Part shown: positions 56 to 35,287 of the stretch, in pieces | How positions within the stretch are numbered: position 1 is the stretch's first letter | How the letters are laid out: every line of letters begins with the position of its first letter | Virus record (IMG/VR): IMGVR_UViG_3300020061_000067 | Span: 1-43,221 of that record | DNA length: 43,221 bases | Reading direction: 5' to 3' (one strand) | Source of the DNA: a virus | Program-made: the position numbers and the translations under genes | Notes under the pieces: model-generated | The model's database searches: none | Told to the model about the DNA's origin: nothing | The model's input: the letters and a program-made list of their open reading frames with translations, nothing else

Positions 56-703
56 ATGGAAGTATCCCTTTGGTCTATTGACAAGCCGATTCCGTATGAG
101 AAGAACGCACGGAAGTGGAGTCCCGCGGCTATTGAGAAGGTCGCGATGTCGATCAAGACCTATGGCTTTCGCCAGCCGATCGTCTGTGATGCGAAGAACG
201 TTATCGTAATCGGCCACCTCCGGCTAGAAGCAGCGAAGCACCTCGGGCTGGAGAAAGTTCCGGTCCACGTGGCGAAGGATCTGTCACCGGCGCAGATCAA
301 GGGCTTGCGCTTGGCAGATAACCGCACGAGTCAGGAGTCGAGCTGGGACTTCGAGATGCTTGGCGAGGAGTTCGAGGAGCTGAAGGATCTGGACTTCGAC
401 CTCGCCTGGACCGGGTTCGACCCATTCGAGATCGATCCGATTATGGCGGCTGAGTGGACACCTGGAGCAGCGACCGGAGACCTCGGCGAAGAGCATCACC
501 GGAGGGTCGATCCTTCGGTCAGCTTCACCGCAGAGGAGAAGGCTGTCATCGACTCAGCGATCAGTGCCATGCGGGACCGTGAGAGCGACCCGGAGCTAAC
601 GGAGGGCCGCGCGCTTATGTTGATCTGCGGTGAGTTCCTCGGCGACGAAGGGGAATGGCAGGCAACGACGGATGCAGAGTCTACGGTTGGCCTACCATCC
701 TGA
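56..703 (+). CDS. ParB-like nuclease/sulfiredoxin-fold protein
   Basis: A 215-residue protein with a ParB/Srx-type N-terminal domain (about residues 5-95). Visible motifs are the NARKWS-like start, the IVIGHLRLEAA segment (the GHxR motif of the family, about residues 51-61) and the ADNRTS segment about 20 residues later. Such domains bind DNA or CTP, or act as nucleases, and often sit beside phage DNA-modification genes. The C-terminal half is acidic and unrecognised. It is the first gene of the window and lies just upstream of the dpdA/queC cluster, so a role in DNA modification or its regulation is plausible but inferred. The 55 bases before it hold nothing recognisable. Confidence 0.8.
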   Translation: MEVSLWSIDKPIPYEKNARKWSPAAIEKVAMSIKTYGFRQPIVCDAKNVIVIGHLRLEAAKHLGLEKVPVHVAKDLSPAQIKGLRLADNRTSQESSWDFEMLGEEFEELKDLDFDLAWTGFDPFEIDPIMAAEWTPGAATGDLGEEHHRRVDPSVSFTAEEKAVIDSAISAMRDRESDPELTEGRALMLICGEFLGDEGEWQATTDAESTVGLPS

Positions 704-716
704 AGGTGATAGGACA

Positions 717-1486
717 TTGAAGGATCTTCGCTTGGCATACAACCCAGGACCGATAGACGCATACGGAGCACCGGCCTTGCTGGTCTCCTATGTCTACCTG
801 GAGCCCTTCCTCAAGAACAGGACCCGGTATCACTATCGCGATTGGGTAATGGATTCAGGGGCGTTCTCTGCACATGCCAGCGGGCGAGCGGTGGATCTTC
901 AGGCATACATCGACACGTGCAAGCGGCTGATGGAATCCGATCCGTTCCCGCAATCCCCTGCTATCACGTCGGATCGCCTGAGGACCTACTGAAGTCACTG
1001 GCGAGGGACTACCCGAAGATCGCCCTCGGTGGAGCGGTGGGCTACCGCAAGAAGGATGACTGGGCCAAGCAATGCTTCGCGCGAGTCTGGCCATGTAAGA
1101 TTCACGGCTTCGGCTTCGGTGGCGAGAAGTCGATCATGGCGCTTCCCTGGCATTCGGTCGACGCGACGAACTGGGAGATCGGGCCTTGCAAGTTCGGGAG
1201 ATGGAACTCCTTCGGGCACATGAGCGTCCGCGGTAGCCAGCAGGATCTACGGGCCGAGGTCCAGTGGTATCTCCGGCTGGAAGATCGCGCGAGGACCAAA
1301 TGGAAGAAGCAAATGATGGAGCTGGACAGTATTGCCCCGACCGTGCGCCTCGCATTAGATGCGGGTGCGGCGAGTGGTCAGCACGCGGCGATCGCCTTTG
1401 GATCATCGGTCCCCCCCACGCTTCGATTAGCCACTCAAGCAAAAGAGGTGAAAAGGTTCAATGCCCTCAACCATCCTGATTTATAG
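717..1486 (+). pseudogene. dpdA: DpdA-type 7-deazaguanine DNA transglycosylase, frame-disrupted
   Basis: Two reading frames together spell one TGT-like (DpdA) enzyme, which exchanges guanine in DNA for preQ0. Frame 717-992 gives the first part with the VMDSGAFSAHASG active-site segment. Frame 842-1486 gives the second part, with AIPCYHVGSPEDLL, KIALGGAVGYR, KIHGFGFGGEK and SVDATNWEIGP, whose Asp matches the catalytic region. The frames switch (-1) near 925-945. The family's middle segment around 'ALDVIG', roughly 25-30 residues, is missing at that point, which suggests a deletion that is not a multiple of three. The TTG at 717 behind AAGGTGAT is the best start. The 3' end overlaps queC. It is either a dead gene, a sequence or assembly error, or an unusual recoding case. 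Confidence 0.75.
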
Positions 1487-2120
1487 CGGCGGTCTCGATT
1501 CGACCGTGCTGCTCTACCGGCTACTGGCATCAGGCCGAACAGTGAAAGCGCTGTCGATCGATTACGGCCAACGGCACCGCAAGGAACTGATCAGCGCCGC
1601 GAGGTTCTGTGAGCGACTCGGGATCGAGCAACGGATCGCCGACCTCAGTTCGATCGCCCCACTGCTGGCGGGAAGCTCTCAGACCAGCGAGATCGATGTT
1701 CCCGATGGTCACTACGCCGAAGAGTCGATGAAGGTCACCGTCGTTCCGAATCGCAATATGATCATGCTATCGCTGGCGATCGGCTGGGCGGTCAGCCTGA
1801 AATACGATTCGGTCGCTTACGCAGCACACGCCGGTGATCATGCCATCTATCCGGACTGTCGCCCCGAGTTCGTCGACGCGATGATTGCCGCGGCAGCGGT
1901 GGCGAACTGGCATCCCGTTGCGATCGACCGGCCATTCATGGATCTGTCGAAAGCGGATATCGTTCAGGCCGGACACCGGCTAAGGGTTCCGCTGGAAGAG
2001 ACCTGGAGCTGCTACAAGGGTCACGACGTCCACTGCGGACGCTGCGGTACCTGTGTCGAACGGCGGGAAGCTTTCGAGCTGGCTGGCGTTCCGGATGCGA
2101 CCCAATATGTTTCGGCTTGA
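1461..2120 (+). CDS. queC: 7-cyano-7-deazaguanine (preQ0) synthase QueC
   Basis: QueC converts 7-carboxy-7-deazaguanine to preQ0 using ATP and ammonia. The protein (219 residues, normal length) has the PP-loop SGGLDST at residues 9-15, the [10 protein letters not shown] segment that follows it in the family, a central [13 protein letters not shown] motif, and a C-terminal zinc site made of the Cys in WSCYKG plus HCGRCGTC. The start is ATG with GAGGTGA about 10 bases upstream. It overlaps the end of the dpdA remnant by 26 bases and the queD start by 14 bases, so it is co-transcribed with its pathway partners. No glutamine amidotransferase fusion is seen, so the product should be preQ0 rather than an archaeosine-type base. 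Confidence 0.97.
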
Positions 2121-2472
2121 GAAGCAATTCCGATTCGAGGCTTCGCATCAGCTACCGAACCATGACGGCAAGTGCGCCCGTTTGCATGGCCATTCCTGGA
2201 TCGGTCGCGCTGTAGTCGAGGGCGTCGAGCTTCACACGACCGGTCCGAAGGTCGGCATGTTGATTGATTATGCCGACATAAACGAGCCGGTTAAACGGCT
2301 GGTCGAAGCGTACCTGGATCACTACCACCTGAACGAATCGACTGGGCTGGTGAATCCGACAAGCGAGGAGCTGGCGCTCTGGATCTTCAACCGACTGAAG
2401 CCGCTAATCACCGGGCTATCCGCCATCGTGATCGAGGAGACCTGCACTAGTCGTTGCGAATACCGCCCATGA
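2107..2472 (+). CDS. queD: 6-carboxy-5,6,7,8-tetrahydropterin synthase QueD
   Basis: QueD makes 6-carboxytetrahydropterin from dihydroneopterin triphosphate, the step after FolE. The protein is about 121 residues, normal for the family. It has [22 protein letters not shown], interpreted as the zinc His and catalytic Cys region (one His in ASH, two in LHGH), a DYADINEPV segment, DHYHLNE, a PTSEELALW segment and a C-terminal EETCTS. The ATG at 2107 is chosen because family proteins begin just before [12 protein letters not shown]; an ATG at 2095 is also in frame. It overlaps queC by 14 bases and queE by the ATGA at 2469. Confidence 0.96.
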
Positions 2473-3083
2473 ACGCGTACACGGTCAATGAAATCTTTTA
2501 CTCGCTCCAGGGAGAAGGAGCCAGGGCAGGCACCGCGAACGTCTTCGTCCGGTTCACTGGCTGTAATATGCAATGCGACCTGGAGCCGGGTCCGCTGTCT
2601 CCTGGAGGCTTCGCCTGTGATACGGAGTTCACCAGCGGGCGGAAACTAACCGCGGTGGAGATCCTGGCAGCGATCAAGGAAGAGTCCGCGGTCTGCCGCT
2701 GGGTGATCCTGACGGGCGGCGAACCGGCGTTACAGGTCGACGCGGAGCTGGTCGCCGCATTGAAAGCCGCGGGCTACTCCATCGCCATTGAGACGAACGG
2801 ATCGATCGATGTCAGCGACCTCGGGCTGGACTGGATCGCCTGCTCTCCGAAGGTGGCCGAGCACGCCGTCAAGCTGAAACGTGCTGACGAGCTTCGGTAT
2901 GTTCGCGCGCACGGCCAGGGGATACCGAGACCGGCGATCCAAGCGGAGTGCCGTCTGATCTCACCGGCATTCGATGGACCGACCCTGAACCCGAGACACC
3001 TCGCATGGTGCATCCAACTCATAAAAGACAACCCGGAATGGCAACTGTCAACGCAACTCCACAAAGCGTGGTTGGTCCGATAA
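2469..3083 (+). CDS. queE: 7-carboxy-7-deazaguanine synthase QueE (radical SAM)
   Basis: QueE is a radical SAM enzyme that contracts the pterin ring to 7-carboxy-7-deazaguanine. The N-terminus has the substrate-binding EIFYSLQGEGARAG, then the [4Fe-4S] cysteines at about residues 32, 36 and 50. The last of these is in CDTEF, which follows a 13-residue loop rich in Pro and Gly, so the spacing is C-x3-C-x13-C rather than the compact C-x3-C-x2-C. Downstream are ILTGGEPALQ (SAM binding) and IETNGS. It starts at ATG 2469 in an ATGA overlap with queD. The C-terminus ends in STQLHKAWLVR, close to the family's QxHK pattern. Confidence 0.95.
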   Translation: MNAYTVNEIFYSLQGEGARAGTANVFVRFTGCNMQCDLEPGPLSPGGFACDTEFTSGRKLTAVEILAAIKEESAVCRWVILTGGEPALQVDAELVAALKAAGYSIAIETNGSIDVSDLGLDWIACSPKVAEHAVKLKRADELRYVRAHGQGIPRPAIQAECRLISPAFDGPTLNPRHLAWCIQLIKDNPEWQLSTQLHKAWLVR

Positions 3084-3649
3084 CCGGGATCGATCACCAT
3101 ACCGCCGTGTTCGCGGTCCGGACGCTCCTGGAGCACCTCGGCGAGAGCCCCGACCGTGAGGGCCTCCTGCGGACCCCGGAGCGTGTGGTGGCTTCCCTGC
3201 GCGAAATGACGGTCGGTTACAGCATGGATCCGGCTGAGATCCTGACGACGACGTTCAGCGATGAGTGCGACGAGATGATCGTGGTCGGCGGAATCGACTT
3301 CTACTCGCTATGTGAGCACCATATGCTCCCATTCGTTGGGACGGCGACGGTCGGTTATATCCCGAATGGCAAGGTGCTCGGTCTATCGAAGATCCCGCGG
3401 CTGGTCGAATGCTTCGCCCGGCGATTACAGATTCAGGAGCGCCTGACAAACCAGATCGCTAGCGCGTTACAGGCGCACCTCCAGCCGCTAGGCACCGGCG
3501 TGATCATCCACGCAATGCACTTCTGTGTCGCTTGCCGAGGCGTCCAGAAAGCGAACACGCGAATGACGACCTCTAGCCTGCTGGGGAAGATGAGAGACTC
3601 CGCCCCGGCGAGGTCGGAATTCCTCGGCTTCACTGAGTCCAGGCACTAA
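3038..3649 (+). CDS. folE: GTP cyclohydrolase I FolE
   Basis: FolE opens GTP to dihydroneopterin triphosphate, the first step to preQ0 (and folate). Visible features are EHLGESPDREGLLRTPERV near the N-terminus, the zinc-binding SLCEHHMLPF with Cys and His, GKVLGLSKIPRLVE, and the C-terminal HFCVACRGVQK containing the third zinc ligand. The length (about 203 residues from the ATG at 3038) fits bacterial type IA enzymes. An in-frame ATG at 3005 is an alternative; the 3038 start overlaps queE by 46 bases and has only a weak ribosome site. It completes a phage-encoded GTP-to-preQ0 route together with queD, queE and queC. Confidence 0.96.
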   Translation: MATVNATPQSVVGPITGIDHHTAVFAVRTLLEHLGESPDREGLLRTPERVVASLREMTVGYSMDPAEILTTTFSDECDEMIVVGGIDFYSLCEHHMLPFVGTATVGYIPNGKVLGLSKIPRLVECFARRLQIQERLTNQIASALQAHLQPLGTGVIIHAMHFCVACRGVQKANTRMTTSSLLGKMRDSAPARSEFLGFTESRH

Positions 3650-3654
3650 AGATT

Positions 3655-4167
3655 ATGGGATTACGAGGACCAGCTCCGAAGCCGACCGATCTCCGCAAGT
3701 TCGAGGGGAACCTCGAGAAGAAGCCGCTTCCGAAGCACGAGCCGCAGTATCCGCCAGGGCTTCCGACGCACCCGGAGAAGATCTCCGAGGCAGCTCAGGA
3801 TATCTGGGACACGCTCGTCGACGAGATGGCTGGCAAGGCGGTTCTTAGACGCGTAGACAAGCGCGCGCTCTGGCAGCTATGTGAGGACGAGGCGATCATC
3901 ACCGAGGCGTACGCCGGGCTCTGGCAGATGGTCACGATGATCGACGAGAAGGCGCGCAAGGAAGGCAAGTCTCTACCTGGCGGACCGATGATCGCTCTCC
4001 TGTCGACGACTAAGGGGCGACTAACGATGGCCGCGATCAGAGATCTCGCGAATCGCGTCATTATCGAGCGTCGCGAGTTCGGCCTGACTCCGTCGTCGCG
4101 GTCTCGAATCGAAGCGACTGCAGAAGGCGGAGCGCTCGACTCGCTGGAGATGAAGCTGTGTGGCTGA
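3655..4167 (+). CDS. terS: Terminase small subunit, P27 family
   Basis: The small terminase recognises phage DNA and regulates the packaging motor. The protein (170 residues) starts MGLRGPAPKPTDLRKFEGN, typical of P27-family small terminases (rGRPPKPtxLkxLeGN). It continues with a helical core containing AQDIWDTLVDEM, VDKRALWQLCEDEAIITEAY and a C-terminal FGLTPSSRSRI segment that is common in the family. It overlaps the large terminase start by 8 bases, the usual arrangement. The gene begins the morphogenesis region six bases after folE, with no visible promoter or terminator between, so the modification and packaging genes may share a transcript. Confidence 0.93.
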   Translation: MGLRGPAPKPTDLRKFEGNLEKKPLPKHEPQYPPGLPTHPEKISEAAQDIWDTLVDEMAGKAVLRRVDKRALWQLCEDEAIITEAYAGLWQMVTMIDEKARKEGKSLPGGPMIALLSTTKGRLTMAAIRDLANRVIIERREFGLTPSSRSRIEATAEGGALDSLEMKLCG

Positions 4168-6889
4168 ATATCGCCCGGCGACCTGCGCGTACTGCTTCGC
4201 TGACTCGTGGTGTGAGACGCGAGCGAACGGTAAGCCGCAGTGTCGGGCTTGCAAAATAGAGCGATTTTACTCTGAAATTCTGTACCCTCCGCTCGGTTAT
4301 AGCCTGATGGGCTGGCAGCGGAAAGTCCTTCGCGACATCTACGGGAAGATCGATCTCGACACCGGCGAGCGTCAGTATCGATCGGCCTACATCTCGGTCG
4401 GCAAGAAGAACGGCAAAGCATTGAGTCTGTCCACTCCGATCCCAACACCTACGGGCTGGACCAGCATGGGCGATATCCGCACAGGAGATTCCGTATTTGA
4501 TGAACGCGGAGCGATCTGCAAGGTCATCGCTACAGGCGAAGTCCAGACCGGAAGGCCATGCTTCGAAGTCACATTTTCAGACGGCTGCAAGATTGTCGCC
4601 GACGCAGAACACGAATGGTTAACGCACACTCGCAAGCCAAAGAACAAAATCCTGATTCACACTACGGCGGAGATCGGCGCAAGCCTCAGGATTGAAAGTC
4701 CCGGCAGCGCAGGCGCTAATCACGCCGTAGCGGTTTCAGGCGCGATTCAGTGTCCGATTGCTGATCTGCCGGTTCCGCCCTATGTCCTGGGCGCGTGGTT
4801 AGGTGATGGCACTTCCTTAAATGCAACCTTCACAGTCTCTGTTAGCGATGCGCATATTTTGAATGAATTTGAACGTGAAGGTGTTTGCTGGCATCGATTC
4901 AAATCTAGCGGAGGATCGAACTCCGCACTGACGGTCCGCCTAGGAGGGAAGCAGGGTCACCACAACACGCGAACTCGTCCTAATCTACAGCGCACCCTTC
5001 GGATTTCGGGACTTCTTGGAAAGAAGCACATCCCCGCTGCTTATCTCCGCTCATCTATCGATCAGCGATTCGCTCTCCTTCAAGGATTGATGGATACCGA
5101 CGGCTACTGCTCTCCGGTAGGCCAGTGCGAATTCACCGCGACCAACCCGCGATTGGCCGCCGGTGTCCTGGAGCTGCTGCGCACACTAGGCTTCAAGCCC
5201 ACTTTTTACATACACAACGCCACGTTAAACGGACGCATAATTGGACCGAAAATCAGGATTCAGTTCTGGCCATCGAAGGAGCCTGTATTTCGGCTCCCGC
5301 GAAAAACCGAGCGCACCCGAAGTTTGAAGTGTGACAGAACCAAGAGGCGGCACATTATTTCGGTTACTCCGACTGAGAGCGTGCCAGTTCGTTGTATCCA
5401 GGTAGATTCTCCGTCGCACATGTTCCTCGCTGGCGAGAGCATGATCCCGACTCATAACAGCTTTCTTATCGGCGGTCTACCGCTGTATCACCTGCTAATG
5501 GAAAACGAACACAACCCGGAAGCATACGGAGCCGCGGCGGCGAAGGACCAAGCCGCGATCGTATTCCGCGCAGCGTCTCAGCTCGTCCAGGCAAACCCCG
5601 AGCTGAATGCCTTGCTGCGGGTGCTGCCGTCGACTAAGCGCATCGTACGGCGTGACGGTGGCGGGTTCTATACCGTTCTCAGCGCGGACGGCGACGTGCA
5701 GGACGGCGTCGAGCCGAGCCTACTGATCCGAGATGAGATCCATCGCTGGAAGTCGGCGAGAGCGGAGACCTTAAAGGATGTCCTTACCAAGGGTCAGATC
5801 TCGCGCTCGCAGCCTCTCGATATCGCGATCACGACAGCCGGAGCAGAGTACGAGTCGCTTCTCTGGTGGCAGGAATACCAGCACGCGAAGCGAGTTCTCG
5901 AAGGTTCCGTCAAGAACAGCAAGCTCTATGCCGCGATCTGGGAAGCTGACCGGAAGCGAATCGATACAGACCCGGATTACTGGAAGTCACGAGAAGCTCG
6001 CGTGGCCGGTAACCCGAGCCATGAAGACTTCGAAGGCGGCTTCTTGCGAGACTCTGCTCTCGTCGGAGAGCTGGATAAGGCGCTCGACGAACCCTCGGAG
6101 CGCTCGAAGTATCTCCGGTATCACCTCAATGTTCCGATCAGTCAGCAGGAAGAGCCGATCATCGACATGGAGGCGTGGAAGCTCTGCGGCGGCGGCGAGG
6201 ACCTGCGCGAGTGGCCGATCTACGATGTCGATCTACTCATTCGGAAGTGGGGCCTTCTCGATCGTCCTTGCTGGGCTGGCGTCGATGCGTCCTGGACGAC
6301 AGATTTAACCGCGGTGGTGTTCGTCTTCCCGCCCTTCGAAGGCGTCGAAGAGTGGACCCTGCTCCCGTTCTTTTGGATGCCGGAGGGTAGAGTCCCGACG
6401 CTGGAGCGCATCTGCCGAGTACCCTATGCGAGTTGGATCGATACCGGCTTCATTGAGACGACCGCGGGTAACGGAATCGATATGCGCGCGGTCAAGGATC
6501 GGATCAAGTGGGGCCGCGAGATGTTCGAGTTGATCGAGGTCGACTTCGACAGAGTCAACTTCCGGACCCAGGCGATGGAACTGCTCGACGATGGGATCGA
6601 CACGATCGAAGTAACGCAGACGTTCCTGCTCCTCAGTCACCCGACGAAGTTCCTCCTAAGCTCGTATGTCGATCAGAAGATCAGACACGGGAATAACCCG
6701 GTTCTGAACTGGATGGCGAGCTGTATGCAGCTCCAGTACGACCGGAAAGATAACTGCCAGCCGACGAAGCCGGAACGCATGAAGTCGGCGAAACGGATCG
6801 ACGGTCTCGCCGCAACCGTGACGGCGCTTAGCCGGTCGCTCGTAGCTGAGGATACCGGCGTAACGGCTACAGTCAGGAGCGTCCGTTAG
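4160..6889 (+). CDS. terL: Terminase large subunit with in-frame intein
   Basis: This is the packaging ATPase and nuclease that cuts and pumps DNA into the prohead. The ORF encodes 909 residues, of which residues 87-433 are an intein, leaving a 562-residue mature protein, normal for the family. Before the intein are a CxxC...CxxC zinc-ribbon-like N-terminus (C9, C12, C28, C31) and GYSLMGWQRKVLRDI. Splicing restores the Walker A motif GKKNGKS. Further on are LLIRDEIHRW (Walker B), ITTAG (motif III-like), and the nuclease domain beginning AGVDASWTTDLTAVV with its acidic residue. The start is GTG at 4160 inside terS, and the stop overlaps the portal GTG start by one base (TAGTG). Without splicing the ATP-binding loop is interrupted, so the intein controls packaging competence. 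Confidence 0.95.
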   Translation: MAEYRPATCAYCFADSWCETRANGKPQCRACKIERFYSEILYPPLGYSLMGWQRKVLRDIYGKIDLDTGERQYRSAYISVGKKNGKALSLSTPIPTPTGWTSMGDIRTGDSVFDERGAICKVIATGEVQTGRPCFEVTFSDGCKIVADAEHEWLTHTRKPKNKILIHTTAEIGASLRIESPGSAGANHAVAVSGAIQCPIADLPVPPYVLGAWLGDGTSLNATFTVSVSDAHILNEFEREGVCWHRFKSSGGSNSALTVRLGGKQGHHNTRTRPNLQRTLRISGLLGKKHIPAAYLRSSIDQRFALLQGLMDTDGYCSPVGQCEFTATNPRLAAGVLELLRTLGFKPTFYIHNATLNGRIIGPKIRIQFWPSKEPVFRLPRKTERTRSLKCDRTKRRHIISVTPTESVPVRCIQVDSPSHMFLAGESMIPTHNSFLIGGLPLYHLLMENEHNPEAYGAAAAKDQAAIVFRAASQLVQANPELNALLRVLPSTKRIVRRDGGGFYTVLSADGDVQDGVEPSLLIRDEIHRWKSARAETLKDVLTKGQISRSQPLDIAITTAGAEYESLLWWQEYQHAKRVLEGSVKNSKLYAAIWEADRKRIDTDPDYWKSREARVAGNPSHEDFEGGFLRDSALVGELDKALDEPSERSKYLRYHLNVPISQQEEPIIDMEAWKLCGGGEDLREWPIYDVDLLIRKWGLLDRPCWAGVDASWTTDLTAVVFVFPPFEGVEEWTLLPFFWMPEGRVPTLERICRVPYASWIDTGFIETTAGNGIDMRAVKDRIKWGREMFELIEVDFDRVNFRTQAMELLDDGIDTIEVTQTFLLLSHPTKFLLSSYVDQKIRHGNNPVLNWMASCMQLQYDRKDNCQPTKPERMKSAKRIDGLAATVTALSRSLVAEDTGVTATVRSVR
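4418..5458 (+). mobile_element. Class 3-type intein with LAGLIDADG homing endonuclease in terL
   Basis: This is a 347-residue in-frame insertion between the Lys and Ser of the Walker A motif GKKNGK|S. It begins with Ala instead of Cys or Ser, followed by block A-like STPIPTPTGW and DIRTGDSVFD. Block B is DAEHEWL with His151 and Trp153. Block F is VRCIQVDSPSHMFLAG with Cys412, and block G is MIPTHN followed by Ser434 of the extein, with Thr431. The Trp-Cys-Thr set at B:12, F:4 and G:5 plus a non-nucleophilic first residue is the signature of class 3 inteins. The middle holds two LAGLIDADG-type motifs, LGAWLGDGT (Asp216) and LLQGLMDTDG (Asp314), so the homing endonuclease looks intact. Base use (more A/T-rich codons) differs a little from the flanks. 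Confidence 0.93.
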
Positions 6890-10588: not shown

Positions 10589-10914
10589 TAGCAAATTCTC
10601 AGCTCTGCGGCGACTACGGAATGGTAGACGGCGGTCACGAGTTCACTTGCGAGGATGACGTCGGCGAGCAGCTCCTCCGGATGAATAAAGCACGCCGACC
10701 AGAATCGCCTTCGATCCGATACGAGACGAAAGTGATCACTCCGGAAGCTCCCGAGGTGAGCGCGCGGACACCGTTTCGTCACGTGTCTGTGTCTGACCCG
10801 GAACAGGCGAGAGTGGCTGCCGAAGGCGATCGAGCAGTTTCAGAGGCAGACCTATCCGACTTGCGAGCTGTTGATTCTCGCAGACGGGGCGAGCGTTCGC
10901 GATCTGGTTCCTGA
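10579..10914 (+). CDS. Small conserved domain, frame-coupled to the downstream glycosyltransferase
   Basis: The first 66 residues look like a real protein: MRLIANSQLCGDYGMV, DGGHEFTCEDDVGEQLL, then YETKVITPEAP. After residue 66 (near 10776) the same frame reads through DNA whose +1 frame encodes a glycosyltransferase, and the sequence becomes Arg/Ser-rich and shadow-like until the stop at 10914. So either the domain is fused to the glycosyltransferase through a +1 frameshift at TTT-C (10774-10777), or a one-base error splits one gene. The short domain resembles small proteins coded just after capsid genes, but no named family is recognised. Confidence 0.5.
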   Translation: MRLIANSQLCGDYGMVDGGHEFTCEDDVGEQLLRMNKARRPESPSIRYETKVITPEAPEVSARTPFRHVSVSDPEQARVAAEGDRAVSEADLSDLRAVDSRRRGERSRSGS

Positions 10915-11377
10915 TAGCGGTAACGTCCGCCTGATCGAACTTAGCGGGGCCGCGGAGATCGGCGAGAAGCGGAACTTCGGATGCGATCGCGCAGCCGGAG
11001 AAGTGATCGCACACTGGGATGATGACGATTATTCAGCTCCAGGACGGCTGGCAGATCAGCTCCAGCGGCTCCAGGAAAGCGGCAAGAGTGTCACCGGCTA
11101 CCACTCAATGCGGTTCACGGATGGCGTCCGCTGGTGGAAATATAACGGCGAGAAACACTACTCGCTCGGGACGTCGCTCTGTTACCGGCGCGATTACTGG
11201 GAGCAGCACCGGTTCCCCTATCTCCAGGTCGGCGAGGATAACCAATTCGTCGCCGCGGCGTTCTCGAATCGAATGCTCGTTACAGCCGACGCAGGCGACC
11301 TGATGCACGCCACGATTCACCCGGGTAATACGAGCCCGCGGCAGATGGGGGATAACTGGAAGCTTCTCGATGCCTGA
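10760..11377 (+). CDS. Glycosyltransferase family 2 (GT-A), 5' end in another frame
   Basis: This frame encodes a GT-A fold enzyme that would transfer a sugar from a nucleotide-sugar donor. It reads VTCLCLTRNRREWLPKAIEQF, QTYPTCELLILADG, GEKRNFGCDRAAGEVIAHW and the metal-binding DDDDY, then CYRRDYWEQHRFPY and VGEDNQF. The conserved N-terminal beta strand (VTCLCLTRNR) begins at 10778, but this frame has no ATG, GTG or TTG before it, only a stop at 10757-10759. The first in-frame ATG (10871) would cut off the nucleotide-binding start. The missing start lies in the frame of the upstream ORF, where ARTPF joins naturally to VTCLCL after a +1 shift. It is the first gene of the glycosylation block. 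Confidence 0.75.
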   Translation, partial: ARGHRFVTCLCLTRNRREWLPKAIEQFQRQTYPTCELLILADGASVRDLVPDSGNVRLIELSGAAEIGEKRNFGCDRAAGEVIAHWDDDDYSAPGRLADQLQRLQESGKSVTGYHSMRFTDGVRWWKYNGEKHYSLGTSLCYRRDYWEQHRFPYLQVGEDNQFVAAAFSNRMLVTADAGDLMHATIHPGNTSPRQMGDNWKLLDA

Positions 11378-11682
11378 GCCGTGGGGGCAGGATAGTCGGC
11401 TACTATCCGGAGCCTCAGCAGAAGCCAGTGGCTTATTTACCATCAGCGGTGCGTGTGGTGGGTTCAGGCGCTATGTAAGCTGGGGCTCATTCGCGGGGTC
11501 CCGAGATTCTGCCTAATCAGTTACTCACCGGAAACGGCTGGTGCGACATACCGCTGCACTCGTTGCCGGACGGTGCTGCATTGCGATCTGGACTGTCAGC
11601 CATTCACCGGCGGTCAATTACGTTAAGGCAAAGAGCCTTTTCCTTTACTCAAGCCCAGAAGCGTAAAGAAGACTTTACACAA
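11378..11682. other. Spacer with only weak coding signals
   Basis: About 305 bases between the glycosyltransferase and the next methyltransferase. It contains a 48-residue frame from ATG 11370 (overlapping the previous stop) and a Cys-rich frame (listed separately at 11453). Several short frames look half-credible and none is complete, which may mean a degraded small gene. No promoter, tRNA or strong hairpin was seen. Confidence 0.4.
11453..11626 (+). CDS. Possible small zinc-ribbon protein
   Basis: From a GTG at 11453 the frame gives 57 residues with WVQALCKLGLIRG and then YRCTRCRTVLHCDLDC, a cluster of cysteines (C-x2-C-x5-C-x3-C) that would suit a zinc ribbon. The coding-like stretch extends upstream of the GTG (QWLIYHQRC) to a stop at 11393 without another usual start codon, and there is no clear ribosome site. 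It may be a truncated or frameshifted small gene. Confidence 0.3.
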   Translation: MWWVQALCKLGLIRGVPRFCLISYSPETAGATYRCTRCRTVLHCDLDCQPFTGGQLR

Positions 11683-12141
11683 ATGAATCTGAATCTCGGC
11701 GCTTGCGACCGCGCGTTTCCTGGCTTCCTGTCAGTCGACATCGTTCCGCCTGCCGACGTGATCGCAGACCTGTCGCAGCCCTGGCCGTGGGAGGATTCGA
11801 GCGTCGATGAGGTTCGCGCGCACGATATTTTCGAGCACCTTCCATCCCGCATCCTAACGATGAACGAGCTTCACCGAGTCCTGAAGCCGGGAGCCCGGGC
11901 CACGGTCGAAGTGCCGAGCGCTACGAAAGGCGCCGGCTGGGCTCAGGACCCGACGCACCTATCGCCTTGGTCTATGAATTCGTTCCAATATTTCGAGGCT
12001 GGGTCATTCGCGCATCAACGATTAGCGAAGTCCTACGGGATCACCGCGGCCTTCCGCCTGGTCTCCCTGCTCGAGCGGATGTACAAGGACGTCCACGAGG
12101 ATGTCTTTAAGATCACCGCAGTACTCGAGGCGGTCAAGTGA
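11683..12141 (+). CDS. Class I SAM-dependent methyltransferase
   Basis: A 152-residue methyltransferase of the short type found in glycan and O-antigen clusters. It begins MNLNLGACDRAFPGFLSVD (the short form of the SAM-binding loop), then VIADLSQPWPWEDSSVDEV, HDIFEHL (the EHL after strand 4) and MNELHRVLKPGARATVEVP, typical of Methyltransf_11-type proteins. The ATG at 11683 fits the family start; in-frame sequence upstream to 11563 is unlikely coding. Its stop overlaps the next GTG start (GTGA at 12138). It probably methylates a sugar or an acceptor handled by the neighbouring glycosyltransferases. Confidence 0.85.
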   Translation: MNLNLGACDRAFPGFLSVDIVPPADVIADLSQPWPWEDSSVDEVRAHDIFEHLPSRILTMNELHRVLKPGARATVEVPSATKGAGWAQDPTHLSPWSMNSFQYFEAGSFAHQRLAKSYGITAAFRLVSLLERMYKDVHEDVFKITAVLEAVK

Positions 12142-12602
12142 CTGCGATCGCCGGGTTCTGCGACCAAGGGAAGGTGTGGATCGGTGCCGACAGCGCTGCC
12201 GTGGCGGGTCTCGATCTAATGGTCCGGGCAGACTCCAAGGTTTTTAGGAACGGGGAATTCCTGTTCGGCTTCACCTCCTCGTTCCGGATGGGTCAGCTCC
12301 TTCGGTATAAGTTGCAGCCGCCGAAACAGCACGACCTCGATACCTACGCTTTCATGGTCACCGTATTCGTGGACGCCGTACGCGAGTGCCTGAAGGCCGG
12401 GCTTTTCTACGTAGGCGCTGACTACCAGGTGGCAGAATCGATGGACGGCTACGATGCTTGCGGCTGCGGCCAGGCGATCATCCTGGGCGCGCTCTTTGCG
12501 ACGAAAGGCATGGAACCTCACGCGCGCATGAAAGTAGCGCTTGAAGCCGCAGAGCGACATAGCGCGGGCGTTCGCGGCCCCTTCCCTATTGAAGCCATAT
12601 GA
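12138..12602 (+). CDS. Proteasome beta/HslV-like Ntn hydrolase
   Basis: The 154-residue protein matches the pattern of N-terminal nucleophile hydrolases. After removal of the initiator Met, Thr becomes residue 1 (MTAIAGF). VWIGADSAA then places Asp at 17, and RADSKVFR places Lys at 33, the same catalytic numbering as proteasome beta subunits and HslV. A GEFLFGFTSSFRMGQLL segment follows, like the G-F/S-G turn and helix 1 of HslV, and GCGQAIILGAL resembles the later GSG segment. Function could be peptide hydrolysis or capsid-related processing; this is inferred. It starts with GTG at 12138 overlapping the methyltransferase stop and ends in an ATGA overlap with a glycosyltransferase. Confidence 0.75.
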   Translation: MTAIAGFCDQGKVWIGADSAAVAGLDLMVRADSKVFRNGEFLFGFTSSFRMGQLLRYKLQPPKQHDLDTYAFMVTVFVDAVRECLKAGLFYVGADYQVAESMDGYDACGCGQAIILGALFATKGMEPHARMKVALEAAERHSAGVRGPFPIEAI

Positions 12603-13288
12603 GCCTCTCCGTAATCATTCCGAGTAAGACATTCTCGAACCTAAGAGCATGCGTCACGGCGCTTCATGCCAACGAACCTGCCTTGCGCCTCATCGTGGTC
12701 GATGACGGACTGGAGGCTTCTTTCGGCTACCAGCCGAGGAGCTTCGAATATTCGGAGGGATCCTGCCTCGATGGAAGCACGATCATTCCGGGCATCAAGC
12801 CGTTTGTATTCGCGCGGAACTGCAATCTCGGGATCAAAGCTGCGGATGATGACGACGTGATCCTGCTCAACGATGACGCCATGCTGAAAACGACGCTAGG
12901 CTTCACTCAGTTGCTAGAAGTCGCGGAAGACAACCCCACGTTCGGAGTCATCTCGGCGACCACTAACGTGGCTGGCAACAGAGCGCAATATCATCGCGGG
13001 ATCGGTCTGCGAGAAGAGGCGCGCACCGTGGCTTTCATCTGCGTACTCATTCCTCGCGTCGTGATCGACAAGGTCGGTCTGCTCGACGAACGGTATACGG
13101 CGTATGGATGGGACGATAACGACTATTGCCGTCGCGTACGGGAGCATGGGCTAAAGATCGGAATCTTCGACGGCTGTTTTGTCGATCACGAGTCCCTTCG
13201 AAGTACGTTCCGCGGCCATCCTCACACCGCGGGCGATATCAGCGCAGGAGCCGAGATCTACCTACGGAAATGGGGGAGCCTCGAATGA
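12599..13288 (+). CDS. Glycosyltransferase family 2 (rhamnosyltransferase-like)
   Basis: A 229-residue GT-A fold enzyme. It starts MSLSVIIPSKTFSNLRACV, continues with LRLIVVDDGL, then FARNCNLGIKAADDDDVILLNDDA (donor and metal site), and has the acceptor-side IDKVGLLDERYTAYGWDDNDYCRRV, whose Asp and Tyr/Trp pattern is typical of GT2 rhamnosyl- or glucosyltransferases. There is no membrane segment, so it acts in the cytoplasm. It overlaps neighbours on both sides by 4 bases (ATGA), showing tight translational coupling within the block. Confidence 0.9.
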   Translation: MSLSVIIPSKTFSNLRACVTALHANEPALRLIVVDDGLEASFGYQPRSFEYSEGSCLDGSTIIPGIKPFVFARNCNLGIKAADDDDVILLNDDAMLKTTLGFTQLLEVAEDNPTFGVISATTNVAGNRAQYHRGIGLREEARTVAFICVLIPRVVIDKVGLLDERYTAYGWDDNDYCRRVREHGLKIGIFDGCFVDHESLRSTFRGHPHTAGDISAGAEIYLRKWGSLE

Positions 13289-13506
13289 GCGTACTAATCA
13301 CCGCCAGGGGATCGCTTCTAACCCCGGGCTCTCTGGCAGACCGGTCTCCGGAAACCGCGACGATGGTCGACGGTCTATTTGCAATCGCCAAGGCGCTATT
13401 CGCTATAGCTGAGGCGATCCGAGATTCAGGGAGCCCGAAACACGAGACGTACCACGTCGCCGCTATCACGCATGAAACTGTTTTTGTCCCCCCACAACGA
13501 CGATGA
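13285..13506 (+). CDS. Hypothetical small protein
   Basis: A 73-residue frame from an ATGA overlap with the preceding glycosyltransferase, starting MSVLITARGSLLTPGSLADR. It contains a hydrophobic helix-like stretch (DGLFAIAKALFAIAEAIRD, about residues 28-46) with a heptad look, then ends by running 35 bases into the PIG-L gene. No family recognised. The position and the start overlap support a real gene; function unknown. Confidence 0.6.
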   Translation: MSVLITARGSLLTPGSLADRSPETATMVDGLFAIAKALFAIAEAIRDSGSPKHETYHVAAITHETVFVPPQRR

Positions 13507-13996
13507 AACCCTGTTCGGATCGTGGACAATCCTTCGCGAGACGCCGACCGTCGTGGTCGTCACGGATTCGTACGCTCAGGAGAACCGAGGATACGGAGTA
13601 ACAGCGGATCAGCGGCGAAAGGAATCGCTAGCCGCAATGGAGATACTCGGCGCGCCTCTCCAGTTCCTCGGATTCCGCGACGATCAGCCACTAACCGGGT
13701 TGGTCGAGCGCTTACGAGAGTATGGCGAGCCGGAAATGGTCTATGCACCGGCGAACGAACTGGGCGGACACGTCCACCACAATCTGATCGGCGATTTCGC
13801 ACGGCGAATCTTCCCGCGAGTGACTTCGTATATGACGTACACCACACAGGGCAAGTCGACGGGCAAGCCGGTATCATTTGATGCTTCCTGGCCGGAGCTG
13901 AAGCTAAGAGCACTGGCCTGTTACGGATCGCAACTGCGGCTGGCTAGCACGCGCGATCACTTCTTGCGACCGCAGTATGAGTATTACCTGGAATAA
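13472..13996 (+). CDS. PIG-L/LmbE-family deacetylase-like protein
   Basis: The 174-residue protein shows the zinc-hydrolase signature of the PIG-L (LmbE-like) family: SPHNDDETLFG at residues 6-16 (PHxDDE) and GGHVHHN at about residue 98 (the HxxH element). It also has VVVVTDSYA, the second beta strand, and RRKESLAAMEILG, the helix common in the family. Members deacetylate N-acetylglucosaminyl compounds. In this block it could trim an N-acetyl group from a glycan. The ATG at 13472 lies inside the end of the previous small gene. Confidence 0.9.
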   Translation: MKLFLSPHNDDETLFGSWTILRETPTVVVVTDSYAQENRGYGVTADQRRKESLAAMEILGAPLQFLGFRDDQPLTGLVERLREYGEPEMVYAPANELGGHVHHNLIGDFARRIFPRVTSYMTYTTQGKSTGKPVSFDASWPELKLRALACYGSQLRLASTRDHFLRPQYEYYLE

Positions 13997-14477
13997 CGAC
14001 ACGATCCGCGAGCACGAGCGCCAGTCGATACGCGCCTTCATGGAGAACCACAGCGGTTATCTTCGCGGACGCGTCATGGACTTCGGAGCAGGCAAGCTCG
14101 GCACTTGTCGCGAGCCGGAGCCGTATCGAGATCTGGTCGACGGCGAGTATGTGCCATACGACAAGGGCGATCAGTGGCCAGACGGACAGTTTGACTGCGT
14201 GATCTGTAATCAGGTCCTCCAGTACGTTCACGATCCTCGGTACGAGCTGGAGCGCTTGCGAGAGAAGCTTCAGTTCGGCGGGCATCTCGTGTTGACGTAC
14301 GCGACTTGCTGGGACGAGGTCGAGCAGGATGATCTCTGGCGATTTACGAAGGCTGGGATGAGTCGATTGCTGCGATACGCCGGGTTCGACGTCCTATTAC
14401 ACGAGCGCCGCGCGGGAATCAATCTCGGCGGCTTCACGTTCGCTCTTGGCTATGGCGTGCTGGCGAGACCTTCTTGA
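13977..14477 (+). CDS. SAM-dependent methyltransferase
   Basis: A 166-residue class I methyltransferase: LRGRVMDFGAGKLG is the SAM-binding motif I, YVPYDKGDQWPDGQFDCVICNQVLQYV covers motifs II-IV, and LREKLQFGGHLVLTYA matches the post-core strand 5 region. The later part (LWRFTKAGMSRLLRYAGFDV) resembles Methyltransf_11/23 enzymes acting on sugars or lipids. It begins 20 bases before the deacetylase stop and is joined to the next gene by a TTGA overlap. Confidence 0.85.
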   Translation: MSITWNNDTIREHERQSIRAFMENHSGYLRGRVMDFGAGKLGTCREPEPYRDLVDGEYVPYDKGDQWPDGQFDCVICNQVLQYVHDPRYELERLREKLQFGGHLVLTYATCWDEVEQDDLWRFTKAGMSRLLRYAGFDVLLHERRAGINLGGFTFALGYGVLARPS

Positions 14478-15004
14478 TCTCCGCGGTTATTCCAACTCGT
14501 GGCGATGTCGATCTATCGGCGATCCGGAAGCATCTCGAAGGATATCTGGAAATCGATGACATCGAGTTCATTCACGGAACGTCGCCGTTCAACCGCTACG
14601 TAGCCGCGGCGAGAGCGAAGCATACCTGGATCTATACGCAGGACGATGACTGTATCACCGACATCCAGCCGCTAATCGACGCCTATGAGCCCGGCATCGT
14701 CGTGAACGCAATGACCGAGGAGCACGGAGCGCAGTATCCGGGCCGGATCACGCTGGTCGGATTCGGCGCGCTCTTCCACCGGCGGCTGATTCAGGTTCTC
14801 GAGGGCTGGGAGCAGGACTCGCTCTTCTTTCGCGAGGCGGATCGAGTGTTCACCGCTCTGACGCAACACAAGACGGTATTTCCAAGGATTCAGATTTTGC
14901 CTTGCGCGATGAACGACAACCGGATGTATCGCCACGTGCAGCATAACGACGCTCGGGTCGCGATCACTCGGCGAATCTTCGAGCGTACGGGTATCGTCGC
15001 ATGA
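14474..15004 (+). CDS. Glycosyltransferase-like protein (GT-A)
   Basis: A 176-residue protein with a short GT-A core. It starts at TTG 14474 (MISAVIPTRGDVDLSAIRK), followed by SPFNRYVAAARAKHTWIYTQ and DDDCITDI, the metal-binding Asp cluster. It then has LVGFGALFHRRLIQVLEGWE, the region that positions the acceptor in this class. It lacks a clear donor-specific motif. It overlaps both neighbours by 4 bases. Probably part of the same glycan pathway as the other transferases. Confidence 0.8.
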   Translation: MISAVIPTRGDVDLSAIRKHLEGYLEIDDIEFIHGTSPFNRYVAAARAKHTWIYTQDDDCITDIQPLIDAYEPGIVVNAMTEEHGAQYPGRITLVGFGALFHRRLIQVLEGWEQDSLFFREADRVFTALTQHKTVFPRIQILPCAMNDNRMYRHVQHNDARVAITRRIFERTGIVA

Positions 15005-15681
15005 TCGAGCTTCTCTATCTCGCGCACAACCGGCTAGCGTTCACGCAAGCCACCTTTGCAGCCATGTTGCTCAACACGAACTGGGCCAGCGTCTCTCACG
15101 TCTCGCTATACGACGAGCACTCGGTCGACGGAACCTTCGAGTACCTGGACCGCGCGACGGCTTCGATCCCGGTCCCTTGCGAGTTATGGCGAAGCGAATT
15201 CCTTTCGCCGGTCGCCGTGCTGAACGATTTCGTTACTCGTCGTCGCCCTGATCTTTTCTGCAAGATCGATAACGACACGATGCTTCCGCCCGGCTGGCTG
15301 GATGACTGTCTCGATGTGATGTCGGCGAATCCTGAGATAGACCTGCTGGGGATCGAGGCGATGTACGAGCCCGCACCCGCCCCCAGCGTGAGAGGCGTTT
15401 CCGTAGCTTCTCACATTGGCGGCATCGGCCTGATGCGAGGACGAGCATTCACCACTTTGCCGGAGCCGCAGGGTCGCTTCGGCTTTACGGCTTGGCAGGC
15501 CGCGGAGCCGGTCAGTAAGGCTTGGCTGACGCCTTCTCTTCCTGTATTCCTGCTGGACCGCATGACCCTAGAACCGTGGCGGACGCTCAGCGAGACCTAC
15601 GTGGAGCGTGGCTGGCAGCGTCTCTGGCCGCCGTATATGGATAGCGAGTCGGCGCTCTGGGATTGGAGTCTCGCGGCGTGA
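15001..15681 (+). CDS. Glycosyltransferase family 2-like protein
   Basis: A 226-residue GT-A enzyme: MIELLYLAHNRLAFTQATF, then VSLYDEHSVDGTFEYLDRA, and FCKIDNDTMLPPGWLDDCLDV, where the DNDT holds the metal-binding acids. The later ASHIGGIGLMRGRAF looks like the acceptor-site loop. Close relatives are common in phage and Caudoviricetes metagenome glycosylation loci. It starts at the ATGA overlap at 15001 and its stop overlaps the next gene's GTG at 15678. Confidence 0.85.
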   Translation: MIELLYLAHNRLAFTQATFAAMLLNTNWASVSHVSLYDEHSVDGTFEYLDRATASIPVPCELWRSEFLSPVAVLNDFVTRRRPDLFCKIDNDTMLPPGWLDDCLDVMSANPEIDLLGIEAMYEPAPAPSVRGVSVASHIGGIGLMRGRAFTTLPEPQGRFGFTAWQAAEPVSKAWLTPSLPVFLLDRMTLEPWRTLSETYVERGWQRLWPPYMDSESALWDWSLAA

Positions 15682-16382
15682 CCGGATTACTTCGGATACG
15701 AAATGAGGCGCGCTGGATCGAGCGCTGCATCTCCTCGATCCTGCCGGTCTGCGATCAGGTCCTCGTCATGGACGATCACTCGACCGATGGCACGCCGGAC
15801 CTATGTACGCCGCTTCCTGGTGTGACTGTCTATCAATCTCCGTTCGCCAACTTAGACGAGGCGCGCGACAAAAACTGGCTTCTCCAAAAAGCGGCCGGAG
15901 CGGAATGGGTTCTGATGATCGATGGCGACGAGCTGCTGGAACCTGGGGCTATTGAAACGGTTAGCGCAGTTTCCCGGCATCGTGCGGCGCTCGTTTATAG
16001 CTTTCGCGTGCTCTATCTCTGGGACAGCGAAACACAGGTCCGAACCGATGGCGTCTACGGACGCTTTCGACGACCGAGTATGTTCCGGCCAGACGGCGCT
16101 ACATTCCAGGCCACGCACGCAGGCGGTAATTTTCACTGCGGGAACGTGCCCCGCGACTTGCAGCCTTACGCGCGACCGATCGACGCAGCGCTTCTGCACT
16201 TCGGTTACCTCCACCGCGAGGACCGTCTTCGAAAGTACGCGTGGTATAACCTTCGCGATCCGCACAACAGGAACGAGGACGGCTACCGGCATATCGTCCA
16301 GGGCGATCTCCCTGAGGTTCCCGGTCAGGCGAAGCTACTTCACGCCGGGCCGCTAACGCTGGAGGATCTATGTTCTCGGTAG
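15678..16382 (+). CDS. Glycosyltransferase family 2
   Basis: About 234 residues from the GTG at 15678 (in frame with a TTG at 15663; the GTGA overlap and the GGAG eight bases upstream favour 15678). It reads TGLLRIRNEARWIERCISSIL, VLVMDDHSTDGTPDLC, DEARDKNWLLQKAAGAEWVLMID and GDELLEP, a standard GT2 donor-binding core similar to bactoprenol- and LPS-type sugar transferases, and then a C-terminal domain with HFGYLHREDRLRKYAWYN, common in glycosyltransferases of this subgroup. It is the last enzyme of the block before the connector gene, which it overlaps by 13 bases. Confidence 0.9.
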   Translation: MTGLLRIRNEARWIERCISSILPVCDQVLVMDDHSTDGTPDLCTPLPGVTVYQSPFANLDEARDKNWLLQKAAGAEWVLMIDGDELLEPGAIETVSAVSRHRAALVYSFRVLYLWDSETQVRTDGVYGRFRRPSMFRPDGATFQATHAGGNFHCGNVPRDLQPYARPIDAALLHFGYLHREDRLRKYAWYNLRDPHNRNEDGYRHIVQGDLPEVPGQAKLLHAGPLTLEDLCSR

Positions 16383-17037: not shown

Positions 17038-18636
<1,599 letters not shown>

Positions 18637-33394: not shown

Positions 33395-34072
33395 GTGACA
33401 CCCACAGAGATCGTGCGCGGCATCCTGCGCGGCGATCCTGAGGCTGAGGAAGCGCTCTACTCCCTGATGGCCGACCGAGTCGCGAGATTCATCACGACTC
33501 AGACCGGTCCTCAGAATCGCGACGACATTCTACACGACGCCTTCCTGGTAACGCTCGACGCGATCCGTCACGGCAAGGTAAAGGAACCAGAGCATCTGCT
33601 CCTATTCGCTCGGCGGATTGCGCGCTGGGGAATCTCGCGAGTCGTGCGCGATCGCATTGAGGCTCGTGAACGCTATGTCTCTTTGGCTACGGCTACTCGG
33701 CGAATGCCTGATGCCGCGGCAAGCTCGCTGGAGATCGTCTCACGAGAGCAACTGCTTGATCTCGTCACTCACGTAATGAGTAACATGCACCAACACGACC
33801 GGGAGGTACTGATGCGGGAATTCATAGACGGCGATTCACTCGAACAAATCCGGAAGGACCTGGGACTCAAGGGCTCCGTGCTGAGTCACCTGCGGGCGCG
33901 CTCGATTAAGATCCTTCGAGACCGAGTGAAGGATATCCTTCGGTCGCCGCGGCTGCTCCGGATCGGAATTGCCGCGCTCTTACTCGCGGGCTATTCGGCG
34001 ATGCTGCCACCGCCTGTCTGCGGGATGAGACCGTGCAAAGAGATTGCGATCAGCAGTTCCGTGGGGTGGTAA
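33395..34072 (+). CDS. ECF-type sigma factor with membrane-anchor-like tail
   Basis: A 225-residue RNA polymerase sigma factor. Region 2 is seen in QNRDDILHDAFLVTLDAIRHG and EPEHLLLFARRIARWGISRVVRD (residues about 40-90), and region 4 in DREVLMREFIDGDSLEQIRKDLGLKGSVLSHLRARSIKILRD (residues about 135-178). After region 4 comes a hydrophobic helix (LLRIGIAALLLAGYSAML, residues 187-204) and a Cys-containing end. A membrane tail is unusual for sigma factors and could tether it. It starts with GTG 33395. It is followed by a strong terminator and a secreted protein gene. Its target promoters are unknown. Confidence 0.8.
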   Translation: MTPTEIVRGILRGDPEAEEALYSLMADRVARFITTQTGPQNRDDILHDAFLVTLDAIRHGKVKEPEHLLLFARRIARWGISRVVRDRIEARERYVSLATATRRMPDAAASSLEIVSREQLLDLVTHVMSNMHQHDREVLMREFIDGDSLEQIRKDLGLKGSVLSHLRARSIKILRDRVKDILRSPRLLRIGIAALLLAGYSAMLPPPVCGMRPCKEIAISSSVGW

Positions 34073-34111: not shown

Positions 34112-34141
34112 GGGCCGCCTTCGTTGGAGGTGGCCCTTTTT
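34112..34141 (+). terminator. Rho-independent terminator after the sigma factor
   Basis: GGGCCGCC (34112-34119) pairs with GGTGGCCC (34129-34136), with one G-T pair, around a 9-base loop, followed by five T's. It lies 40 bases past the sigma factor stop and ends the long late transcript. The secreted protein gene starts 110 bases further on. Confidence 0.88.
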
Positions 34142-34249
34142 CTTATTCCAACCCTAGACCTTTCTTCTCTGTCTTTCTCACCATTTACAGGCACGGCACC
34201 GATTCGCGGTCTCCTCGTGGATGGAGCCGTGCAGGGAGCAACTAACGCA

Positions 34250-35287
34250 ATGACAACGACCAAGGCGATCCTCGCCGCATTCCTACTCGCCGGTGTCTCC
34301 TACTCCGCGGGACCACTTCGACCGACGATCGAACGCGCTGACAAGTTCGGAGGTCGGCTGTCGATATCGGCTGACGGGAAATACCTGTTCTATGACTCGA
34401 TAGAGAGCGGACGCTGGAACGTCTACCGCGGCCTGATCGGCGACAGCGCTAAGCCGAAATGCCTGACCTGCGCGAACAATAAAAATCAATTCGCCGGTAA
34501 TCCGGACGTTCACCCGGACGGCATTCACTTCGTTTTTCAGATGTCGCCTCCCGGCGAGACGGGCTTCCTGGCGGAGCCCGGTCACGGCTGGCGCAACAGC
34601 CTGTATACGTCTGACCTCGACGGTCACATCGTGCAGATCACGTCTTCGCCCGGCACGCTTCATCCGCGGATCAGCCGGGATGGAAAGATGCTGAGCTGGG
34701 CCGAGATGCCGGGCTGGCCGAACAAGTGCAACGGGAGCGCGGCTGAGTGTCGATTCGGCCTCTGGTCGCTCAAGCTCGCGGATCTATATATCGACGAATC
34801 CGATCATCTTTTAATCCGGAATACCCGCACATTTAATCCAGGCGATCGACCGGCGTTCTACGAGAGCCACGGCTTCTCATGCGATGGAAAGAATCTGATT
34901 TTCTCCGGCAATCCCACGCGAGGCCAGCCCGGTGAAAATCTCGGTATCTATACGATGGCGATCGACGGAACCGGCTTTCGCGCGATCTACGTTAAGCCCG
35001 GGGAATGGAACGAGCACGCTGCCGACGACTGCAAGGGCGGAGTGATCTTCATGGGTACGGGCGGCCATGTGCTTGATGGGACAAACCCGCAGCTCCGGCC
35101 ACGTAGGGTGAAATGGGACGGATCGAGTGCAGAGTCCCTTACGTCTGAAGACTTCATGCAGAGCGCGGTGACTTACGTTAATCGGACGCTCGCAGACTTC
35201 GCGCTCGCGAACGGGCGCATCTATGCCGACGCGAAGAACTACGCTCAGGGCGGCGACGCGATCTGGAGTTTTCCGGCTGAAAAGTAG
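34250..35287 (+). CDS. Secreted beta-propeller protein (TolB/PD40-like)
   Basis: About 345 residues from ATG 34250; a longer open frame begins at 34124 but overlaps the terminator, and a signal peptide (TTTKAILAAFLLAGVSYSAG) starts at 34250. The body repeats the PD40/TolB blade pattern: GGRLSISADGKYLFYDS, NPDVHPDGIHFVFQ, HPRISRDGKMLSWAE, FSCDGKNLIFSGN. Such secreted propellers are common in Acidobacteria and others as cell-surface or periplasmic proteins. It has its own transcriptional position after the terminator, so it looks like a cargo (moron) gene expressed from the prophage or phage; function unknown. Confidence 0.82.
   Translation: MTTTKAILAAFLLAGVSYSAGPLRPTIERADKFGGRLSISADGKYLFYDSIESGRWNVYRGLIGDSAKPKCLTCANNKNQFAGNPDVHPDGIHFVFQMSPPGETGFLAEPGHGWRNSLYTSDLDGHIVQITSSPGTLHPRISRDGKMLSWAEMPGWPNKCNGSAAECRFGLWSLKLADLYIDESDHLLIRNTRTFNPGDRPAFYESHGFSCDGKNLIFSGNPTRGQPGENLGIYTMAIDGTGFRAIYVKPGEWNEHAADDCKGGVIFMGTGGHVLDGTNPQLRPRRVKWDGSSAESLTSEDFMQSAVTYVNRTLADFALANGRIYADAKNYAQGGDAIWSFPAEK

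Follow-up and report, generated by a model that had tools for sequence, protein, structure and literature searches.

In the DNA of phage Rosebush dPreQ0 stands in for about 28% of G, and phage CAjan, once its dpdA is mutated, has no modification that can be detected and becomes sensitive to restriction (PMC6884629). As regards the ParB-like gene, ORF1 of phage CRB2 has already been proposed as a homologue of DpdB (PMC6392294), and a 2026 BREX paper describes the bacterial DpdB as an ATPase of ParB-like type that serves insertion (PMC12839542). The locus studied here lies in a window, i.e. the whole stretch of 43,221 bases that was analysed, where positions 56-6889 hold, all on the + strand, genes in the order ParB-like, dpdA (in two frames), queC, queD, queE, folE, terS and terL, the last two being the terminase genes.

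The preQ0 genes and their neighbours

Window genes were assigned to families through Pfam, NCBIfam and PHROG profile matches. The gene queC (7-cyano-7-deazaguanine synthase, 1461-2120) matches PF06508 (1.5e-62) and TIGR00364, with 198.9 bits above the cut-off of 150.3. It is followed by queD (6-carboxytetrahydropterin synthase, 2107-2472), which matches PF01242 (5.7e-30), retains CxxxHGH and D70-H71, and with 88.1 bits falls just under the TIGR03367 cut-off of 89.25. The product of queE (7-carboxy-7-deazaguanine synthase, 2469-3083) is of the radical SAM type, with cysteines C32, C36 and C50, and matches phrog_2076 (2.6e-31) and TIGR04508 (5.6e-42; 143.9 bits, under the model cut-off of 240). 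Finally, folE (GTP cyclohydrolase I, 3038-3649, with a start at 3005 or 3038) matches PF01227 (2.9e-68) and, above cut-off, NF006825. The four preQ0 genes of a Rosebush-type cassette, FolE, QueD, QueE and QueC, are all present, and they retain every conserved column, defined as at least 95% identical across 38-121 relatives: 27/27 in QueC, 10/10 in QueD, 21/21 in QueE and 19/19 in FolE. Overlaps are found at each junction, i.e. dpdA/queC at 1461-1486, queC/queD at about 2107-2120, queD/queE at 2469-2472 and queE/folE from 3005 or 3038, depending on the folE start, to 3083. The preliminary description, which took these genes to be intact and overlapping, is borne out by the profiles, the residues and the overlaps, and the region it gave, 717-3649, takes in the preQ0 genes; dpdA spans about 672-1486, starting upstream of 717.

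Upstream, positions 56-703 encode a ParB-like domain protein (PF02195, 8.4e-07; phrog_620, 9.3e-45), a candidate DpdB counterpart on the grounds of the PF02195 match and of its conserved position, as a ParB-superfamily protein coupled to dpdA. Against PADLOC and NCBIfam it matches general ParB and type II methyltransferase models only, with no DpdB match. Because the gene stands directly 5' of dpdA in 54 of the 59 testable clade members, gene neighbourhood supports, short of proof, a common task of the two.

Downstream lie the terminase small subunit (3655-4167; PF05119, 2.4e-09; phrog_83, 1.3e-16) and the terminase large subunit (4160-6889; TerL_ATPase, TerL_nuclease and LAGLIDADG_3), which, as seen from its domains and junctions, is interrupted by an intein. 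The latter, at about 4418-5458, comprises 347 residues with a LAGLIDADG domain, is inserted in the ATPase motif (SVGKKNGK / SFLIGG), begins with Ala and ends with HN, followed by Ser. Further along the window, an island between the capsid gene and later structural genes (10871-16382) contains three glycosyltransferase-2 genes, two methyltransferases and a PIG-L deacetylase, possibly for decoration of the virion or of surface glycans; a long collagen-like Gly-X-Y protein is encoded among the structural genes (17038-18636), and a WD40-like beta-propeller (PD40) protein with a signal-like start (34124-35287) adjoins a sigma-factor-like gene (33395-34072).

An internal deletion in dpdA

The dpdA gene is found in two pieces, which match separate stretches of phrog_887, a queuine tRNA-ribosyltransferase profile. 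The 5' fragment (672-943), placed by profile positions 29-90, by positions 1-58 of the family HMM and by alignment, contains two RLA motifs and DSGAF, and its frame continues to a stop at 992. The 3' fragment (944-1486; profile positions 128-214, family HMM 85-196) contains IALGG, HGFG, SVDATNW and two C-terminal RLA motifs. That dpdA is split into two frames, as had been noted earlier, holds, since the pieces match one family HMM in different frames. The nature of the lesion needs correction: alignment with 19 relatives, at both protein and DNA level, places at 943/944 not a slip of the reading frame but an internal deletion in which about 85 nt are gone, costing 28 residues and shifting the frame. 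In the window '...RLMESDP' joins 'VPAIPCYH...' directly, whereas 28 residues intervene in each of the 19 aligned intact relatives. A simple frameshift or sequencing slip is ruled out by these missing residues. No copy of the lost block was found elsewhere in the contig by a six-frame motif search, and the family HMM scores in the window only the two dpdA fragments, although it would miss a DpdA2-type protein.

Of the motifs expected of a phage DpdA, DSGAF and SVD(A/S)xxW are retained in the fragments; an LDxI motif with an invariant Asp, and an Asn about 11 residues further, are deleted. The window therefore lacks the intact DpdA of a Rosebush-type cassette.

It should be mentioned that short motifs recur in the tails of DpdAs, mostly (A/G)PTVRLA and, in actinophages, GPHLHLA, with 1-5 per protein. 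In the window they occur at 672-780 and 1370-1435, and they are also seen in L016, L123, L128, L107, L108 and L114. The 60 C-terminal tails hold 44 copies and the N-terminal tails 75; shuffling gives a mean of 1.8 in each case, with a maximum of 5 for the C-terminal tails. In the L016 model (see below) the copy at the N-terminus folds as a strand with a pLDDT of about 90, which aligns with the point where the TGT barrel begins; the other copies are disordered. The idea that, in DpdAs lacking the N-terminal copy, C-terminal VRLA copies provide barrel strand 1 was unsupported, the L021 tail being disordered in its model.

Structural role of the lost block

A set of 27 DpdAs, which includes those of phage 9g, actinophages and Rosebushvirus Ares, shares 20 invariant columns; the lost block contains four of these, L108, D109, I111 and N120 (L016 numbering). 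The numbering is that of an intact relative, L016, modelled with AlphaFold. Its model shows a confident barrel, with pLDDT above 90 through most of it and 183 residues at 90 or more. In structural comparison it comes closest to tRNA-guanine transglycosylases (TGT), headed by the Z. mobilis enzyme (Z 16.8, rmsd 2.9, 224 residues). The lost residues 101-128 correspond to a strand (102-106), the LDVI turn and a helix (114-126), i.e. one strand-helix unit of the barrel, and the window copy accordingly falls short of the complete TGT-type fold by that unit. The Asp residues of DSGAF, LDVI and SVD are presumably the counterparts of D102, D156 and D280 in Z. mobilis TGT. Because the deletion takes this unit out of the TGT barrel, an invariant Asp included, and puts what follows out of frame, the DpdA as sequenced would, judging from alignment and model, be inactive as a transglycosylase.

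Intact and damaged relatives

Survey loci were recruited by DpdA, by QueC and by the family alignment. They yielded, at HMM E below 1e-70, 60 distinct DpdAs of the clade that are full-length, so intact copies, for which a search in related contigs had been proposed, are plentiful, and the possibility raised beforehand that relatives might lack dpdA homology did not hold, as clade relatives carry dpdA in place. One of the intact cassettes lies in a prophage-like region of an acidobacterial MAG (L113). Among the other surveyed clade members none shows a split of the window type. Eight loci (L121, L140, L146, L173, L177, L187, L022 and L075) carry two or three dpdA copies per cassette, often in tandem. 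A capsid-based search for phage neighbours gave two distant contigs only, one without a cassette upstream of the terminase genes and the other beginning near terL.

Two uncultured viruses, L179 and L185, resemble the window in that a deletion destroys dpdA beside an intact ParB-like gene. In L185 (3863-4618) the front half of dpdA continues in frame into the end of folE, giving a fusion ORF, and in L179 (3905-4644) dpdA terminates and is followed by the folE tail. Unlike the window, which retains four intact preQ0 genes, both have lost queC, queD and queE and keep a truncated folE. These large deletions, which join dpdA to folE, are separate from that of the window, and loss of DpdA would therefore recur in the group, if those contigs are correctly assembled.

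Probable loss of DNA modification and its alternatives

In the proposed mechanism FolE, QueD, QueE and QueC would convert GTP to preQ0. DpdA, possibly aided by the adjacent ParB-like protein, would swap guanine in phage DNA for this base, hiding restriction sites. In the window copy the internal deletion of about 85 nt would kill DpdA; preQ0 would still be produced, and the DNA would go unmodified if neither a host enzyme nor another phage provided DpdA activity. We consider it probable that the window holds a tailed-phage cassette for preQ0 DNA modification, of the Rosebush type, in which such a deletion has killed DpdA and the DNA is unmodified, a recent natural loss of modification being the likeliest reading. 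The loss would be recent because the rest of dpdA and the preQ0 genes are undecayed. Of the outcomes envisaged in the preliminary description, modification lost while the precursor genes stay probably applies to the window copy, with its deletion in dpdA and its intact preQ0 genes.

The age of the lesion was assessed from residues at least 90% conserved in 19 other sequences. The fragments, with the deletion excluded, retain 51 of 52 such residues, on a par with intact copies, which rules out a long-decayed pseudogene, and the third-position GC of dpdA is near the value of neighbouring genes. Because of this retention, the deletion fits either a very recent event or an assembly fault. The latter is the main rival: the deletion would have arisen in assembly or consensus calling, or the assembler would have chosen a minority variant, and the natural virus would have an intact dpdA and dPreQ0-modified DNA. 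The undecayed remainder of dpdA is what such a fault would leave, clade relatives combine full-length dpdA with intact que genes, and the lesion lies less than 1 kb from the end of what is a single contig, from an uncultured virus, that has no terminal repeats. On the other side, about 85 nt far exceeds a base-call slip, the short repeats near 943/944 are imperfect and wrongly spaced to account for assembly collapse, and relatives carry independent dpdA-destroying deletions. Exact-pattern scans, in a collection that may lack close records, found no near-identical contig that might hold the other form of dpdA. Taken together, we regard a fault of this kind as a real but clearly lesser possibility than natural loss.

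A bolder proposal is that the group sheds DpdA repeatedly under selection, for example by host defence against 7-deazaguanine-modified DNA, the window being a fresh escape variant that still makes preQ0 and L179 and L185 representing later stages; we give this a slim chance. If the deletion is real, the window is a natural counterpart of a laboratory dpdA knock-out, and it shows that a phage can lose DNA modification with its whole precursor pathway in place. In combination with L179 and L185, this suggests frequent gain and loss of the cassette; therefore, gene presence alone would not predict modified DNA, and dpdA needs to be read residue by residue.

It is very unlikely, in our view, that the DNA is modified all the same, with phage-made preQ0 inserted in trans by a DpdA of the host or of a co-infecting phage, or through a DpdA-independent dNTP route. 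Precedents exist for each, since HVTV-1 has dPreQ1 without a DpdA of its own and its host encodes one, and a modified-dGTP route was proposed for Campylobacter phages with dADG (PMC6884629). However, the window has no second DpdA of this family by the family HMM, and DpdA-like matches occur in only 3 of 297 sampled genomes of the phylum of the related acidobacterial prophage, a phylum that may or may not include the host of this phage, one of the three being that prophage. As for the dNTP route, no suitable nucleotide kinase or polymerase was noted among the ORFs scanned, a part of all ORFs. The earlier suggestion that another enzyme takes over thus finds no positive support in the window, even though preQ0 could be a substrate for a TGT or DpdA of the host.

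Use of the preQ0 genes for host tRNA queuosine, with dpdA no longer required, appears extremely unlikely. Hutinet et al. proposed this role for preQ0-gene phages without DpdA (PMC6884629), and the acidobacterial genome with the related prophage has a TGT and a QueF match. Still, the phage gave no TGT or QueF match, its cassette adjoins ParB and dpdA, an arrangement seen in phages whose DNA is modified, and a long-standing role of this sort predicts greater dpdA decay than observed. With no tRNA genes in the 43,221-base window and no second DpdA or TGT found, this suggestion, also made beforehand, gains no positive support there. That the two dpdA pieces cooperate as a split enzyme has a negligible chance: both have open frames and conserved motifs, but the lost block contains an invariant Asp together with a barrel unit, and its motifs are missing from dpdA, with no matching copy seen elsewhere in the six frames.

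Comparison with known systems

The preferred reading, natural loss of DpdA from a modification cassette, has an experimental parallel in Escherichia phage CAjan delta-dpdA, which likewise has preQ0 genes and an inactive dpdA (PMC6884629); it differs in being another phage, with an engineered lesion instead of a natural or assembly-born one. The phages that Hutinet 2019 placed in the last group, which have preQ0 genes but lack DpdA (PMC6884629), share with the window, as sequenced, a complete preQ0 pathway and no working DpdA, whereas the window still holds dpdA remnants.

The Rosebush-type comparison was made with Ares (L107, genus Rosebushvirus) and Quesadilla (L108). Mycobacteriophage Quesadilla has the identical order from the ParB-like gene through terS-terL, and Ares the same order up to its terminase. 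The Bclasvirinae cassette in general (Rosebush, Ares, Quesadilla and, as described in PMC6392294, CRB2) agrees with the window in gene order and strand, but its dpdA is unbroken, its proteins are far diverged (QueC 46-50% identical), and the phage backbone is different, with probably another host phylum. The cassette of the window is hence of a known kind, the Rosebush type, here with a damaged copy of dpdA.
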